From Acanthamoeba lenticulata (lineage: Eukaryota; Discosea; Longamoebia; Acanthamoebidae): a stretch of DNA of 23,462 nucleotides. The stretch lies in assembly GCA_002179805.1 (NCBI GenBank), contig NAVB01001131.1, positions 1 to 23,462 on the forward strand, written 5' to 3'. The notes beneath the pieces were generated by a model. The model was not told the DNA's origin and made no database searches. It saw only the letters and a list, made by a program, of their open reading frames with translations. The position numbers were made by a program, and so were the translations under genes. Shown piece after piece: positions 2,093-23,064 of the stretch (its first letter is position 1; each line of letters starts with the position of its first letter).

Positions 2093-3213
2093 ATGGGGTG
2101 GCAGCTGCTTCTCTGGACCACCGTCGTGGCAGCGCTCGCTGGTACACGTGCTGCGTTGAGAAGCTTCGCGAGCAGACTCGTTCGCATATTATCTGACAGA
2201 TCTGTGTGGGGGTTGGGGGGGGGGGAGAAGTCGTGGTGTCGATGGCGGGAACCGCGCATGGTCAGTGCGTGCCCGTATCAGGCTTGTCCTTTTGCGCGAG
2301 CGTCAACTACTCGGTCAATGCGTCTTCCTTTGCACACCCCGGAAGCTCGCCACAGGAGCAGGACCAGTTGGTGCAGGCGTGGTACGCCAAATACTCATCC
2401 GAACAGCTGCAAACGCAAGACTGTCTCATGGCGTGGAAGGCCTACCTGTGCTCTTTCTATTTCCCCAAGGTGAGTGTCATCCTCACGTGTTTTCACTTGT
2501 TCCTCCGCTCATACCTTCTTTCCTCTTCAGTGCCCGTACTGCCGGGAAGCCAACGGTTTGCTCCAATCTGTCTTGAGTTGGTTGGTCTTTGACAGGCCAC
2601 TGATGCCCGTCTCGTGATTGTGTGCGCAGGTATCTGTCGAAGCGCTTGCGTGGCGCTTACGGCCCGTTGTGCACACCAGGTGCAGGACTACATGGCAACC
2701 TGCTACGGCGGCAACCTTTTCGTCAACGAATCGGCTCTGTGCACCCCTTACTCCCTGACCCCTATCTCCCCTCCGGCTCCCGTGAGTGAAGTCGCGCCTC
2801 GAGGCGCAGGAAAGGCCTCACGTCGAGATGCCCTACAGGCTACAGAGCCTCTCTTCCAGTGCCTGTCTGTGCCCCCAGCCTACGCGTCCTTCTGTCAGCC
2901 GTTCTGGGCCGTGGCCAGCGCCCCCAACAACTACACTGACGTGTGGATACGCATGGACAACGTCACCCAGACTCGCTGGAGCACGTTCGCTTCCGGTGGC
3001 GTCTCGGCGGAGTGCCAGCAGGCGCTTCGCCGGTACTTCTGCGCCGAGTACTTTTCGCCCTGCAACGGGCCAACGTCTCTGCTCAATCCGATCGCGGACG
3101 TCCTGCAACCGCTGTGCGCCCAGCTTCAGGGCGTTTGTCCCGAAGGTATGGTTCGCAAGGTGTGCAGCTTTAGCCCCTACACCCCGCCGGATCCGAACGT
3201 GTGCTTAGAGTGA
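2093..3213 (+). CDS. Secreted protein with two Frizzled-like cysteine-rich domains
   Basis: Five exons, 2093-2141, 2231-2469, 2531-2555, 2630-2781 and 2860-3213, join in phase to 272 residues. ATG 2093 gives a hydrophobic leader (MGWQLLLWTTVVAALA, continuing VVVSMAG across intron 1) that looks like a signal peptide. The first module, from Cys29, follows the Fz CRD spacing: QC, FC with VNYSVN, then QDC, YLC, KC, YC, GIC, SAC, RC and TC, ending near ALC. A second, less complete module starts at QCLSVPP and has FC, EC, YFC, SPC, PLC and VCP. There is no second membrane segment or GPI-type tail, so it is probably secreted or carried in the secretory pathway. Potential N-glycosylation sites (NYS, NAS, NES, NYT) agree with that. 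Ligand unknown. Exon 3 is only 25 bases. Confidence 0.75.
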
Positions 3214-3240
3214 AGCTTTCCCGTCGTGTAGGGTACACGG

Positions 3241-3246
3241 ATTAAA
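3241..3246 (+). terminator. ATTAAA polyadenylation signal of the Frizzled-like gene
   Basis: ATTAAA lies 27 bases after the TGA at 3211-3213, at the start of an AT-rich stretch. The remaining 3247-3365 must also hold the promoter and leader of the PNKP gene, whose ATG is only 152 bases from this stop codon. No TATA-like element is clear. Confidence 0.5.
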
Positions 3247-3365
3247 TTTTTGTTGATTTCGTGTAAAAATTTTGGCCCTACTTAGAAAAGAGCCGCAATT
3301 TGGCCCAACGTACGTTATTACCAGTTCGTTACCACCCACGCCAACACCAGCCGGAGTACTCCGCC

Positions 3366-5365
3366 ATGCCCCCCAGGAAAGCGGCTACTCGCGCCAGCGC
3401 GCGCCTCGCTAAGACGACTGCCCGCAGTAAGAGGGACGAAGAAGATTACGAAGAAGAGGAAGAAGAACAACAGGAGGTCAGACCGACGCGACGGGTCGCA
3501 AGAAGGGCTGCCGCGAGCAAGAAGAAACAACAATCTTCGGAAGAAGAGGAAGAATCAGAGGAGGAGGAGGTTAAAAAGCCAGTGAGGCGAGCCGCGAAGA
3601 GGAAGGCTGCCCCCCGCAAGAAGAAACAGTCTTCAGAAGAAGACGAAGACGAGGTTGAGGAAGAAGAAGACGAGGAAGAGGAGGAAGAGCAAGAAAGTGC
3701 GCCCAAGCGCCAGCGCCTTGCCCGCAAGGCCAAGGAGGTGAAGGGCGGTGACGAAGAAGAGGAGGACGGCAACTCCTCAGTCCAAGCTGGGAAATGGACC
3801 TCAGTGGACACGATGTTGGTGCTTGACGGCCCCGACACTAAGCCTTCGGCTAAGATTGCGTCTTTTGACATGGTACGTGCTCCCCTGCGCACACACAGCA
3901 CTCTCTTGTCTGCCCCAGGGCTAACCTGCTTCTTTTATTGTGTCTTCTTTTTGCTCTCCCACCTTCGAAAGGACGACACGCTTATCACCACCAAGTCTGG
4001 TCGGGCTTTCCCGACGGGCCGAGCGGACTGGGTGTGGTGGGACAAGAAGGTGCCGGAGAAGCTGAAGGAGCTGCACCAGGAGGGGTTCAAGCTGGTCATC
4101 TTCACCAACCAGGCCGGCATCAGCAAGGGCCACTCAAAGGCCAAGGACATCCAGGGCAAGATTCTCGACCTCAGCGCGGCGCTGGGCCTCCCTCTCCAGG
4201 CCTTTGTCGCGACGACGGATGACAAGTGGCGCAAGCCCTCCACCGGCATGTGGGACTATTTTGTCGAGCACCACAATGGCGGCGTCGCCGTCGACATGTC
4301 GCAGTCGTTCTACTGCGGCGACGCCGCCGGTCGCGCCAAGGCGTGGGACGGCAATGCCAAGACCAAGAAGGATCACTCGTGCTCCGACCGCAAGTTTGCG
4401 CATAACGCGGGCCTGCCCTTCCACACGCCCGAGATGCTCTTCTTCGGCCACAAGGACGTGGCCTTTGCGTGGGGTTCTATTGATCCGACCTCCATTCCCA
4501 AGAGTACGCCACCGCAGTTTCTGGCTTACGTCGTTATCGATTCCTCATTGACCACTGGTTCGATTGTTGTGTTTGCCGTGTTGACTGCTGGGCCCTTTGT
4601 AGCGGGCAAGTCCTACGAGGGCGAACTCACGTCGGATTCACAGGAAATGATCATTTGCGTTGGCTTCCCCGCCGTACGTAACATTCTCGCCGACACCCAC
4701 TCCCACGCTCCCTCTGCTCATTACTTTTCATGATCTTGTGGCTCTACAGTCGGGCAAGTCGACCTTCACACGCCGGCACCTGGTACCCAAGGGCTACGTG
4801 CACATCAACCAGGATACCCTCAAGTCCAAGGCCGGCTGCCTCAAGGGCGCCCGTGCAGCCATTGAGGAGGGCAAGAGGTATCTCTCTTCCCCTCTCGTCG
4901 TCCTGCCCTTTTAGTTGCAGCGCTCATCGGCTCGGGTTGTTATGCGTTGGCTTGGGGGGGGGGCACTAGTGTGGTGATCGACAACACCAACCCGAGCGCG
5001 TCAGTGCGCGCCGAGTACATTGCCATCGCGAACGATCACGAGATTCCAGTGCGCTGCTTTGTCTTCTTGACGCCGATCGAGCTGGCGCAGCACATGAACA
5101 GCTACCGCGAGAATGTGTTTGGGATCAAGCACGTCCCCGGTGTGGGCTACAACATGTGCGTGTCCCCCCCCCCCGGCCGTGATGAGTCGCTAAGGGAAAG
5201 CCTGGCCACACACTGCTAACCCAAACATTTTCCCCCTTGATCAGGTACAAGAAGAACTTCAAGGCGCCGCACAAGTCGGAAGGCTTTACGGAGGTCAAGG
5301 AGATCAAATTCGTGCCGCACTTCGACGATCCCGAGAAGGAGAAGCTCTTCTACCGCTACACTTGA
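3366..5365 (+). CDS. PNKP: Bifunctional polynucleotide 3'-phosphatase/5'-kinase
   Basis: Six exons, 3366-3872, 3972-4503, 4603-4673, 4750-4877, 4970-5155 and 5245-5365, join in phase to 514 residues. The enzyme cleans DNA ends: it removes 3'-phosphates and phosphorylates 5'-hydroxyls before ligation in single- and double-strand break repair. The phosphatase domain (about 160-345) is HAD type, with the nucleophile motif SFDMDDT (D168, D170), then VIFTNQAGI and FYCGDAAGR. The kinase domain (about 360-514) has Walker A GFPASGKST (367-375), HINQDTLKS with D392, and DNTNPS near 417. The usual N-terminal FHA domain is absent. Residues 1-165 are instead alternating acidic runs (EEEEEE) and basic patches (RRVARRAAASKKK), probably nuclear and nucleic-acid or chromatin binding. 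Intron 1 is open in frame and splits the nucleophile motif exactly. Confidence 0.93.
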
Positions 5366-5497
5366 GGCCTTATCGCGCTCCCAAGAGAGCCACAAGGACG
5401 GTGTTATATGGGTGATATTTAGAGGATGAAGAAGAAGAGGAAGAACAGAGAAGAGGAGGGTTTGGCTTTCGTTTAGGGTGTGGGGGGAAGGAGGGAT

Positions 5498-17294: not shown

Positions 17295-20200
17295 ATGTGC
17301 TGCGTGATAGCATGCCTCCAAACTACTCTGTTGATACTGTTGTTTTCCTGCCCTGGCACCTTGTCTGCCGGTACCTCCCCCCTCCTCCTCCTCCTTAACA
17401 CTTCTTTCCCAGCCTCGCCATCTTGTGAGCACAGCTCTTGCTGTGTCCACGAAAGCCTTTCACTTTGCCCATCTCCAGCCCAACAGTGAACAACTCGTTA
17501 CTAAGATCCGCACCACCCCTTTGGCCTCTTTCTTGCCATAATCATACAGTGCAGACAGTGTGCCCGAATGACTGTGACTACACAGATATCAGTACTGCGC
17601 TGACCAATGTGATGCAACCCACAACGATCCTGGTGCGCACTGGCGCCTACGAATCAGCAGCTATCCAAATTAGTGCCTCCAACATCGAACTTGTGTGCGC
17701 ACGACCTCTTCCCTTATCTGTCTCCAAGCCTTGCGCACACTTGTCTTTGTGGTCGTCTGATGACACCTTTGTGAGTGCAGTCTTGACGGGCCGGTGCTGT
17801 GGAACATCACTTCTGGAAATGTTGTGCTTGTCTTAGGGAAGAACTTTGTGATCAACGGAAGCCTCAGCATCACCAATGGCGGTAAGTTGGCGCCCAACTG
17901 ATCAAACCTTTGACCGTAATCCCCCAATACTATGTGGTCAATTGAACAACAAGGATTGTTGTTGTTAAAAATCTTAACTATGTATGTTGTAAAGGCTTAG
18001 GTGGCTTGTATGCCACCATTAGACAATACGGGACCCTCAACATCACCTCAACCTCGGATGATGCCTTGTATCTGTCTAGGACCACACTCCAGACGTTCGG
18101 AACCATCCACCTCAGTGGTGGGCGAAGGAATTCAGGTACGTGTGGGAATTAAGGTCTTTACCACTTTTGCTCTCTCCTTTTCTGACAACTGGTGGTGTGA
18201 TGGATTTAGTCTACATGACTTATTTGAGTGTGTGGAATCAAACGGGCGATGCTGTGGTGACTGGCAGCATCGGTGTGCTGCTTTCCTCCTCCTCCCAATT
18301 TTCCCAGCATTGACTGCAGCTTACTATCTTCGTACCCACTGAACTTGCACTACTGGTCTCCATCGCCACATCAGAGGCCTCTGATCAGAGCAGGTGGTTT
18401 CAAGATGGATCACTTGTTGCTACCTTGGCCCAGTTCGAAAGTAGCGCAATCACCCCCCCCCCCACCCACCCATCAGCTATCCTTGAAAAGAGAGAGGATT
18501 TGGGGGGGGGGATTTCTCACCACTCATCATTGCAGGCGTGCGGATAGACCAAAGCACATGGACCAGCAATGGACCGGTCTCCTTAACGGGCATACTCTGG
18601 CCATTTGCTGCTCCAGGTGCGCACAGGCCAAACGTCACACATGTCATGTTCAAAGGTCACTCTGCAGTGTGCGGTTGTATACAGCAGCTCACCTCACACC
18701 CACAACCACCACCACCACCACCTAAGGAATTACCATTACTGCCAGCAGTGTGTGGATAACAAATGCAACTGTCCTCATTGACATCAACACTTCCATGGCA
18801 GGTACACCTACTCTACCCTCTTTCTTCTCTTCTTGAGCTTTCTGCACTACTGGTGTGTGTTTGTGTGTGTAGTGTGATCGTCACCAGCGCCAGTGGTTGT
18901 CTCATTTGTTGGGGGTGTATGGGCTCTAGTTTCAATCCAAGAGGAAAGCGCTTGGCACCAATACTCGTCCCTCACCATCACCGCCCAAAACACACACTAC
19001 GACTTCGCGGGAGGTATGTAAACAACACAGGAGGGAGTGTTGCTTTTTTTGGATTCCGTCGCTCTCTGGCGATCTAACCTGGTGTCTTATATTGTGCCCC
19101 ACGTGAAGTCGTGGTGATTGAAACCAATTCTAACTGGTTCCAGAACGGCTTGGCCGAGCTGAGCCTCACAGCAGCCAACACTGGCGGTATGAAGAGATCA
19201 CCTGCGCCTGACCGGTGGCCGGTGTGATCAATCTCATAGTAGAGTGTCCCTCACACCACTGGTGGTGGATGGTGTTGTTGTTGTTGTCACAGGAGTGTTG
19301 TGCAGTGGAAGCAACTGGACTCAAAACAGTGATCTGAGCATCACGTCACGCCAATCAACGGGGTTTTCGATGGTAAGCCTTGGCCCGTCCGCAACCTGGA
19401 CTCAAAATGGCAACGTCACCTTGGACCTCCTCGATCAGTCATCAGGCTTTGGTAACAAACGCCATCTGTGGCCCACTCATTCTGCTGCTTTGCGTGCTTG
19501 CTGATGTCGCATTTGTGTTTTTAGGTGTCAGAGCGGCAGGAGCAGCAACGACGTGGCTCCAAAGGGGCAAAGCAACAATTTTCATCGAACCTATCACACC
19601 ATCCTACGGTATGTTGCGCCCACGCACACATACCGTCAAGTAGGTGTGAGGTCTTTACCATTCATAGGGGAGATGAGCTCATTTGATGGTTAGGAGTCTA
19701 TGCGGCAGACAACGTCGTTGGGTGGTGGAACCAAACTGGAGCTTTGAATGTCACTATCTCGGGTCCCAGCAGTGTTGGTAAGCTTTTTGATGTGATATAT
19801 ATCGCACATAGGAGAGGAGAGTCTCACATATCCCCACACTGTCTGTAATGCAACCTCTTGGCGTAGGCGTGCAGTGTGGTAGCTGGATCTGGTATACGTT
19901 GGGTCCTGTCTCCATCAACAGCCAAGCAGGATCTACCAACTTCAGTACGCTCAGTATTCGTGGATTGCTTGATGATAAAGATGATTACAGTTGCCTCACT
20001 TGCTCTCTGCGTGTAGATTGCTCTGCCTCTTCGTTCCCCTTGCCTTTTGTATCACCCTCAAGCACCCCCACTGCATCTCCTTCGCTGCCCCCTACGTCGT
20101 CGCCCACTCCATCTCTCTCACCTTCCTCATCAGCTGCACCGACTACTTCGCCCACCATTTCGCCCTCTCTCACTCCCTCATTCTCCGCCTCGGTCACACC

Positions 20201-22402
20201 TACTGCTTCTTCGACGCCTTCGTCCTCTGCTTCAGTGCCGCCCTCTAGTACACCTTCGGGGACCTCCACACCAACACCAACCATCACGCCCACGGTAACC
20301 CCAACGGTGACTCCGACGGTGACACCCACGGCGACGCCTACGGTTACCGTCACGCCCACAGGGACTCCAACAGGCACACCGACAGTGACTCCCACCATAA
20401 CGCCTACTGTGACGCCAACTGGACCACCCACGGTAACCCCCACGGTGACAGTTACGCCCACGGTGACGCCCACAGTCACACCCACGGTTACGCCGACCGT
20501 GACTCAGACCGTCACACCCACTGTGACATCGACTGTTACTCCAACCGTGACGCCCTCAGTTACGCCCACCGTGACGCCTACCGTGACGCCGACAGTGACG
20601 GCCACTGTCACGCCCACGGTGACACCTACGGTGACTCCCACAGTGATACCCACTGTTACTGTTACGCCGACAGTGACGCCAACAGTGACGCCCACCATCA
20701 CACCCACAGTGACGTCTACAGTCACTCCCACGGTCACGCCCACAGTGACACCCACAGTCACTGCTGCGACGGTGACGCCGACACCTACCGGAACACCCAC
20801 TCCAACGCCCACGGTGACACCAACAGCCACGCCAACACGAACTCCTACCGCCACTCCCACCGTTACGCCGACTCTTACACCTACAGTGACGCCCACAGCA
20901 ACGCCAACAGTGACACCCACAGTCACTCCAACTGTCACGCCGACAGTGACGCCGACGGTGACACCAACTGCTACGCCGGCGTTGCCGCCCACCGTAACGC
21001 CCTCAGTCACGCCCACTGTCGGTGTGCCGACAGTTACCCCCACCGTCACGCCCACGGTGACGCCGACTGTGACGCCCACGCTGACGCCCACAGTGACGCC
21101 GACAGTTACCCCCACCGCCACGCCCACGGTGACGCCGACTGTGACGCCCACGCTGACGCCGACTGTTACGCCGACGATGTCGCCCACAGTGACACCTACA
21201 CTGTCACCAGAGTCGTATATCTTACCTCTCAATGTGACCTACAACATCGATGAGACAGTGCCCAACCTCAGCCTGTCTGTCCAGGGATCTAACAGCAGTG
21301 GTGCACCCTCCCCACCCCTCTAGTCGCTGGCCTTAGGCTCACTGTTGTGAGGGCCCTTCTCAACCAACCAGTCTCCTATGCTGTGGTGCACAGGTGCACC
21401 ACAGACTGTGGTATCCATGTCACAGCAAGATCTCCAGCTGGGCTCCGGCTCTCCCTTCACAGCGGCCGGTAACAGATCTTTTGCACCACTACTGCAGTTC
21501 TCCCTTGTGAGTGTGCACTCAACGCTGTTGGTGCAATGTGTGGTGTGGTGTGGTGTTGTGTGTGGTGCCTCGATGCAGTGTCCAATGTGCAGGTGGATGG
21601 AGCAACAACCATCTACACGCAGTACGTTACCAACGCGGCCAACCACACGCTAATGCAGCTCAGCCAGTTGTTCACCTTCCACGAGGATACCTTGGAGGGC
21701 CTGTTTGCCGGGCGCGGCTTCCTCATCAGAGCCAGCACTCTCAAGTGGGCGCTATCCATCACCGGCAGCAGCGCTGGACAGCTGACTGTGCGCTATCGGC
21801 TGTCAGAGAGCAGCAACTCTTCGCGTGCTGCCGGCCTTGCACGCGGCGTTACTGTGCGACGCGGAGTGCCGCAGGCGCTGATGACCACCTACTACGTTCC
21901 CTTTGAGTCCGTGGTGACCGCCTCCTCTGGTGGCGCAACCTTGTCATCTTCATCGCAGCTGGTGGCACTAGTCGAGGTGTGGGACTTTGCGGTGGCCGAC
22001 GGTGCAGAGCGACCTATAGGCCACGATGTGCGACTTGCTGAAGCAGAGCCAGACTCTGGGCCGTCGTCATCATCATCATCATCATCGCTCGAGTATGTGC
22101 TCGAACTCAGACTTCCAAGCTTCACAACCTCGCTCTACTACGACCCATCTCTCTCCTTGGGCATGCTCGTGGGCGCAAGCAGCAACGGCATTTCCAAGAA
22201 GGGCGGCACTGATGGCAACACAATGCTTCTCGTGATTGCGGGAGTTGTAGTCAGTGTCCTGATCATCACCAGCATTGCAGTGACTAGCACAGTGGTGGTC
22301 CTGATGCGGAGGAGAAAGACTAAGCAGTTGCAAGTCCTGCGCAAGACCCTGGTGTACACCACACCCATACAGGTGCATACTCTCAACCATCTCAATGGAT
22401 AA
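17295..22402 (+). CDS. Type I membrane surface protein: repeated exon modules, TPTV stalk, short tail
   Basis: Sixteen exons join in phase to 1197 residues: 17295-17370, 17550-17694, 17781-17881, 17995-18135, 18210-18272, 18375-18440, 18536-18616, 18727-18801, 18930-19013, 19109-19186, 19293-19451, 19525-19608, 19694-19777, 19867-21300, 21394-21506 and 21593-22402. Exon 1 is a signal peptide (MCCVIACLQTTLLILLFSC...LSA). Exon 2 (VCPNDCDYTDISTALTNV, then TTILVRTGAY and NIELV) looks like the entry of a right-handed beta-helix. The next exons mostly encode one unit each, with a W-x-Q-x-G-x-L-x-I-T-like core and many Asn glycosylation sites. Residues about 476-860 are a Ser/Thr/Pro then TPTV stalk, probably heavily O-glycosylated. 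An unassigned domain follows, then a Ser run, a membrane span (about 1139-1165), RRRK and a tail of some 30 residues. This layout fits a surface receptor or adhesin; no enzyme motif is seen. No family name is known to me. Confidence 0.8.
20280..21210 (+). repeat. 12-base coding minisatellite (Thr-Pro-Thr-Val)
   Basis: About 75 tandem units of 12 bases, close to ACGCCCACGGTG, all in frame within one exon of the surface protein. Units differ mainly at third codon positions (acg, aca, acc, act; gtg, gtc, gtt), and replacements are mostly V to A, I or L and P to S. Flanking 20040-20280 is Ser/Pro/Thr-rich but not regular. Confidence 0.95.
21537..21567. repeat. TGGTG repeat in an intron
   Basis: TGTGGTG units in the last intron (21507-21592) of the surface-protein gene, the same motif as at 16221-16255 but on the coding strand. 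Confidence 0.7.
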
Positions 22403-22911: not shown

Positions 22912-23040
22912 CATGTACATGATGTGATGGTGACATGCCATATATCATTCGAAAGCCCATGAATTATCACATCTGATAAAACTGGTTTCATGATTTGTCG
23001 ACTTGTTGTTGGCCCACAAGATGGTGCACAAGACTTTGGG

Positions 23041-23064
23041 TTAGGGTTAGGGTTAGGGTTAGGG
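23041..23064. repeat. Interstitial telomeric repeat (TTAGGG)4
   Basis: Four perfect TTAGGG units, preceded by an imperfect TTTGGG at 23035-23040. They are flanked on both sides by unique sequence, so this is internal and not a chromosome end in this window. Confidence 0.9.

Follow-up and report, generated by a model that had tools for sequence, protein, structure and literature searches.

The stretch of DNA analysed here is contig NAVB01001131.1 of Acanthamoeba lenticulata over its whole length of 23,462 nucleotides (hereafter the window), which is contig C814 in our search of the genome (48.5 Mb in 1825 contigs). Two profilins encoded in this genome have the solved profilins II and IA of Acanthamoeba castellanii as their best matches, which marks the genome as that of an Acanthamoeba; since both differ from these at several positions, the species may not be the same. 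On its plus strand lies a gene, rebuilt from GT..AG sites and reading frames, whose modelled product contains a row of eleven short repeated units, called coils here, with a core near W-x-Q-x-G. In the model the gene has 17 exons, with 1165 codons ahead of the stop, and most of the coils occupy an exon of their own that is bounded by phase-1 introns on both sides. The exons are listed below, where 1-1 denotes phase 1 at both ends, u1 to u11 denote the coils and C918 is a contig that carries a paralogue; all lines are from the model, those of exons 5 to 13 also from the unit profile, and those of exons 9, 12 and 13 from the coil alignment as well.

17295..17370, plus strand: exon 1, start codon and a signal-peptide-like hydrophobic stretch (signal peptide by eye), phase-1 end
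17550..17694, plus strand: exon 2, N-terminal segment (CPNDCDYTDISTALT...TTILVRTGAY), phase 1 to 2, conserved in the C918 paralogue
17781..17881, plus strand: exon 3, phase 2 to 1, phases identical in the C918 paralogue
17995..18135, plus strand: exon 4, 141 bases (b), 1-1, the C918 counterpart having 147 b
18210..18272, plus strand: exon 5, 63 b, 1-1, coil u1 (W-N-Q-T-G)
18375..18440, plus strand: exon 6, 66 b, 1-1, coil u2 (W-F-Q-D-G)
18536..18616, plus strand: exon 7, 81 b, 1-1, coil u3
18727..18801, plus strand: exon 8, 75 b, 1-1, coil u4
18930..19013, plus strand: exon 9, 84 b, 1-1, coil u5
19109..19186, plus strand: exon 10, 78 b, 1-1, coil u6
19293..19451, plus strand: exon 11, 159 b, 1-1, coils u7 and u8, with a 168-b two-coil exon in C918
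19525..19608, plus strand: exon 12, 84 b, 1-1, coil u9
19694..19777, plus strand: exon 13, 84 b, 1-1, coil u10
19867..19944, plus strand: exon 14, 78 b, 1-1, final coil u11, absent from the list in the preliminary description, with a 78-b counterpart in C918
20017..21300, plus strand: exon 15, 1284 b, 1-1, the stalk, rich in Thr and Pro and with 12-b tandem repeats, followed by the beginning of the juxtamembrane part
21394..21468, plus strand: exon 16, 75 b, 1-1, also placed with the gene's own protein as query
21579..22402, plus strand: exon 17, juxtamembrane sandwich-type domain, transmembrane (TM) helix, short basic tail and stop codon

Based on this model, 15 of the 16 introns are of phase 1, with the sole exception of the exon 2/3 junction, which is of phase 2. 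The preliminary description of this DNA had singled out ten exons (141, 63, 66, 81, 75, 84, 78, 159, 84 and 84 b), and their positions, their lengths, which are multiples of three, and their phase 1 at both ends are all reproduced exactly, as are the two units that it had placed in the 159-b exon. Exons 4 to 13 are separated by GT..AG introns of 73-128 b each, and the coil exons, which are exons 5 to 14, comprise nine with one coil and one with two, all of them 1-1. The 1-1 pattern runs past the coil row via exons 14, 15 and 16 up to the membrane exon 17. Within exon 15, the diverged, Thr-Pro-rich 12-b repeats of the stalk at 20274-21193 are a likely site of length change, the stalk exon having 1284 b in the window gene versus 468 b in C918.

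The units of the window gene are truly similar to one another. When each unit was anchored at its Trp and scored with a leave-one-out profile built from the other ten, the share of its own 2000 shuffles scoring as high was 0 to 0.0455 for each of the 11 units, and the sum of the profile scores was 28 as compared with -221 +/- 24 for the shuffles, with 0 of 2000 reaching it. The ten units of the C918 paralogue, which lie outside the profile, also score high, the largest shuffle share being 0.0045. The coils within the window gene are nevertheless well diverged from one another. Among the listed exons, to which a W-x-Q-x-G core had been ascribed, the 141-b exon is the exception, as it holds no such Trp unit. 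In each of the ten coil exons the Trp follows the exon start by 7-11 residues, and the codon that is split at the coil start reads G/GN or G/TN (the slash marking the exon boundary) in 8 of the 10. In a wider set of 41 coils, 31 from the window gene, C918 and contig C988 and ten more from three other loci, Gln is present at +2 of the Trp in 36/41 and Gly at +4 in 30/41, with the ten being a selected sample because their loci were found with the coil profile. After the Trp, hydrophobic positions in the 41 coils alternate as in a beta-strand, and the coil looks like one turn of a beta-solenoid. The beta-helix proposed before is consistent with this alternation and is a putative fold.

The exon model is supported by the paralogue on C918 (L063, minus strand), which is built on the same plan and whose ectodomain is 42% identical to that of the window gene, because its 11 modelled junctions, of which ten have phase 1 and the remaining one phase 2, follow the same order of phases. 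The coil exons of the paralogue, of 75, 87, 240, 168, 81, 84 and 78 b, hold 1, 1, 3, 2, 1, 1 and 1 coils, giving ten coils as compared with eleven in the window gene and six coil-boundary introns as compared with nine. The coil order is collinear between the two genes, and when the coils of one gene were permuted 2000 times, 0 of the permuted orders attained the best score. In the best collinear alignment u5 is unpaired and u2 to u6 match their C918 partners weakly, with several of u2 to u6 scoring higher against coils of other loci; among the middle coils, the identity of the one that C918 does not have is uncertain. In coil exon 7 of the paralogue, that of 240 b, an 18-nt stretch, GTGCGTACACAGCGTTAG, is located at a coil boundary and is read through in frame. 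With its donor-like beginning and acceptor-like end, this stretch looks like what is left of an intron that has shrunk. The idea that the two-unit exon of the window gene had lost an intron fits with the matching 168-b two-unit exon of C918 and with this three-unit exon and its intron-like stretch. Since the two-coil exon is common to the two genes, the fusion of its coils predates their split.

A near-identical copy of the C918 gene on contig C208 (L062) is probably the other allele, and it looks broken. Missing from this copy are 272 columns, of which 9 belong to one exon, 91 to an intron and 172 to the exon that follows; the 146 exon bases left are not a multiple of three, and the frame is broken; because the deletion is not exon-exact, it provides no example of clean exon loss. 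Between the stalk and juxtamembrane exons of L062 (C208:39700-46300), at about 2480-5460, lie Copia-like retrotransposon frames with stops, which resemble zinc knuckle, reverse transcriptase and RNase H (named by eye).

Further coils are found with a profile of 31 coils on C39, C262 and C1795/C898, and weakly on C248. Considering each YAG located 5 to 12 residues ahead of the Trp, we find that the likely acceptors are of phase 1 in 13/15 cases in loci L022, L023, L025 and L028 (19 coils, with L026 and L029 set aside because each overlaps or is a twin of L025 or L028) and in 11/12 cases in C988 (L067, 15 coils), with the donors under a stricter donor pattern being of phase 1 in 7/10 and 4/6 cases, respectively. 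C988 carries a tandem pair with 75% DNA identity, and, as judged from phase-1 candidates only, several of its exons apparently contain two or three coils each. A query made of C988 coils gives 85 genome matches at E <= 0.01, among which the sets on C988 and C34 correspond to each other; the coil content of these two contigs looks equal, and they may be allelic.

At its membrane end the window gene belongs to a large Acanthamoeba family, as defined in the present analysis, in which the juxtamembrane domain and the membrane helix are shared and the ectodomains differ: it has the sandwich-type juxtamembrane domain with the K-W and YDP-x-L-x-LG-x-L motifs, followed by the TM helix. That the gene encodes a membrane-anchored protein, as had been claimed, is supported by the signal-like start (by eye), the stalk and the TM helix of the model, and from this build of the protein a place on the cell surface and a role in prey or substrate recognition may be inferred. 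The anchor domain is similar to the ComC supersandwich domain (PF22933, ComC_SSD) by a weak sequence match and by its sandwich-type predicted fold. The PF22933 profile has 4 genome matches, none of which reaches the curated cut-off (best 21.6 bits versus 24); it matches 3/12 members of set A2 (best E 0.022) and 3/22 members of set A3 (best E 0.00048), and TM-segment families such as SKG6 and Psg1 match 7/22 of the A3 members. The luminal domain of GLMP (PDB 6nyq) also counts among the nearest comparisons, at 10% identity, and the PF15065 (NCU-G1/GLMP) profile has no genome match, although its controls are silent too. Among the other family members, L043 and L056 (by Pfam) and L044, L051 and L054 (by eye) have RCC1-type CWG repeats, L054 and L056 being near each other on C33 and readable as one long frame, while L058 and L060, and by eye others too, have an ectodomain around 'YWLVL' without Pfam match.

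We propose, with a probability of about 0.62, that the gene encodes a type I single-pass surface glycoprotein with a beta-solenoid of about 11 coils, and that the row was built up by duplicating a one-coil exon in tandem, with later intron loss and gain or loss of single coils. In order, the protein would consist of a signal peptide, an N-terminal part, the approximately 11 W-x-Q-x-G coils, the Thr-Pro stalk, the sandwich-type juxtamembrane domain, the TM helix and a short tail, and the anchor family with its differing ectodomains would most simply be composed of adhesion or recognition proteins. Long ago, a one-coil exon flanked by phase-1 introns would have been copied in tandem, with the frame and the coil register surviving each duplication because the intron phase is constant and the intron place nearly so. 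Afterwards some introns would have been lost, leaving exons with two or three fused coils, and coils would have been gained or lost singly and slowly, over the time scale of the paralogues.

It is noted that several points weigh against this proposal. The splice sites are read from sequence alone, the exons and phases being those of a model. The introns of the window gene have no clear similarity to one another, and thus the joint duplication of exon and intron cannot be demonstrated. In the tandem pair on C988, just 5/15 coils have a best-scoring conserved splice pair that is 1-1, the acceptor being of phase 1 in 13/15 and the donor in 7/15. The last intron ahead of the anchor domain was located with two queries in the window and in 29 family loci; among these 30, it is of phase 1 with both queries in 11/30 (identical site in 5), of phase 0 with both in 3/30, of phase 2 with both in 3/30 and absent with both in 5/30, while the two queries disagree in 8/30, the window included; phase 1 at the anchor is thus common and not universal. 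For the fold, the ectodomain, which has 413 residues once spliced, has no relevant Pfam or PDB sequence match, right-handed beta-helix and pectin-lyase-like proteins included, and structure prediction of a two-coil peptide yielded no usable model.

The main rival to tandem exon duplication is that the coils came first, in an intronless gene, and that phase-1 introns were inserted later in parallel at the same conserved coil-start codon, which would act as a proto-splice site. This could explain the lack of clear similarity among the introns, the presence in relatives of some coils with no intron at their start and the G/GN or G/TN codon at 8/10 coil-exon starts, and it is also in line with the intron richness of Acanthamoeba genes, laterally acquired ones too, in passages of the genome paper (PMC4053784). 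However, it requires about ten independent hits in one phase and at one place, the 18-nt intron-like stretch of C918 points to loss at that boundary, and recent intron gain is very rare according to the same passages of Clarke et al. (PMC4053784). We consider parallel insertion possible but doubtful.

Another explanation is that the exon row serves to generate variants of the solenoid, with coil exons skipped or combined by alternative splicing as in the leucine-rich repeat (LRR) exons of brown-algal ROCO genes. In the model each coil exon can indeed be removed without frame change, and alternative LRR exons provide a precedent in the portion of PMC11378527 consulted. Of the variant-making system envisaged in the preliminary description, the evolutionary change in unit number (11 versus 10) is supported, and its use by the cell to make variants is hypothetical. 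The coil order and all but one coil are conserved between the two paralogues, and no alternative splicing or reshuffling is shown. Moreover, the coils are well diverged, unlike recently copied exons, just two short weak DNA repeats are found within the window gene, C988 and C34 match corresponding parts of a coil query, and the one deletion of unit scale, that in C208, disrupts the frame and does not coincide with exon borders. That the exon row is known from DNA alone also counts against this explanation, which we consider unlikely. Equally improbable in our view is the grander version, in which a single-celled predator has a large family of recognition receptors with solenoid ectodomains made from interchangeable, alternatively spliced phase-1 coil exons, as a counterpart of Dscam or of the brown-algal ROCO receptors.

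As a background for the phases, two neighbouring genes in the window, a small sample modelled by hand, were used: an epimerase-like gene (named by eye), which has 7 introns, and a gene of PNK3P type, recognised by its Pfam match, which has 5 introns and whose model is cut short at 5350. In their 12 introns, phases 0/1/2 occur 6/3/3 times, and the excess of phase 1 in the window gene (15/16 versus 3/12) has a binomial probability of 1e-8 at p=0.25 and 3e-4 at p=0.5, values that are limited because the introns are not independent if the exons were duplicated. Phase 1 is thus present in the neighbours, but with 15/16 introns in the window gene and 24/27 likely acceptors in other coil loci being of phase 1, it is very improbable that the pattern is a mere by-product of phase 1 being common genome-wide. 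Close to the contig end, at 23038-23064 of the window, there is an interstitial telomere-like GGGTTA repeat of 4.5 copies.

Brown-algal LRR-ROCO genes are the nearest system for comparison and were reportedly studied by Zambounis et al. in 2012, as cited in PMC11378527. Their 72-b LRR exons of phase 2 are described, in the portion consulted, as undergoing intense shuffling and alternative splicing (PMC11378527). The window gene resembles them in having a single repeat of a probable solenoid per symmetric exon and in being a candidate recognition protein; it differs in its phase 1, its W-x-Q coil, its one-coil exons of 63-84 b (63-87 b together with those of C918) and its old coils in conserved order, and no LRR or ROC-COR Pfam domain is found in its ectodomain or last exon. 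It may work like the LRR-ROCO type but is not a member of it. For animal genomes, part of PMC6547436 describes a surplus of phase 1-1 exons at domains; the flanking phases are the same here, whereas the unit, a single coil of about 20-30 residues, is not an entire folded domain and occurs in an amoeba. For Acanthamoeba, passages of the genome paper give 6.2 introns per gene and many receptors (PMC4053784). No such family is named in the literature searched, including the consulted portions of PMC4053784 and PMC11377244, where the coverage was thin for subscription journals and without supplements. While single repeats in symmetric exons are known, what is new here is one probable beta-solenoid coil per exon, in phase 1, in an amoeba and inside a large family with a shared anchor.

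Finally, we note that genes with one coil per exon offer a direct view of how repeat proteins grow and how repeat receptors evolve. Relatives of graded age are present in one genome, namely near-identical contig pairs, tandem copies and an older paralogue, and in one of the relatives an intron has apparently been caught in the middle of shrinking. For a bacteria-grazing amoeba, the anchor family and its exchangeable ectodomains represent candidate proteins for the recognition of prey or surfaces.
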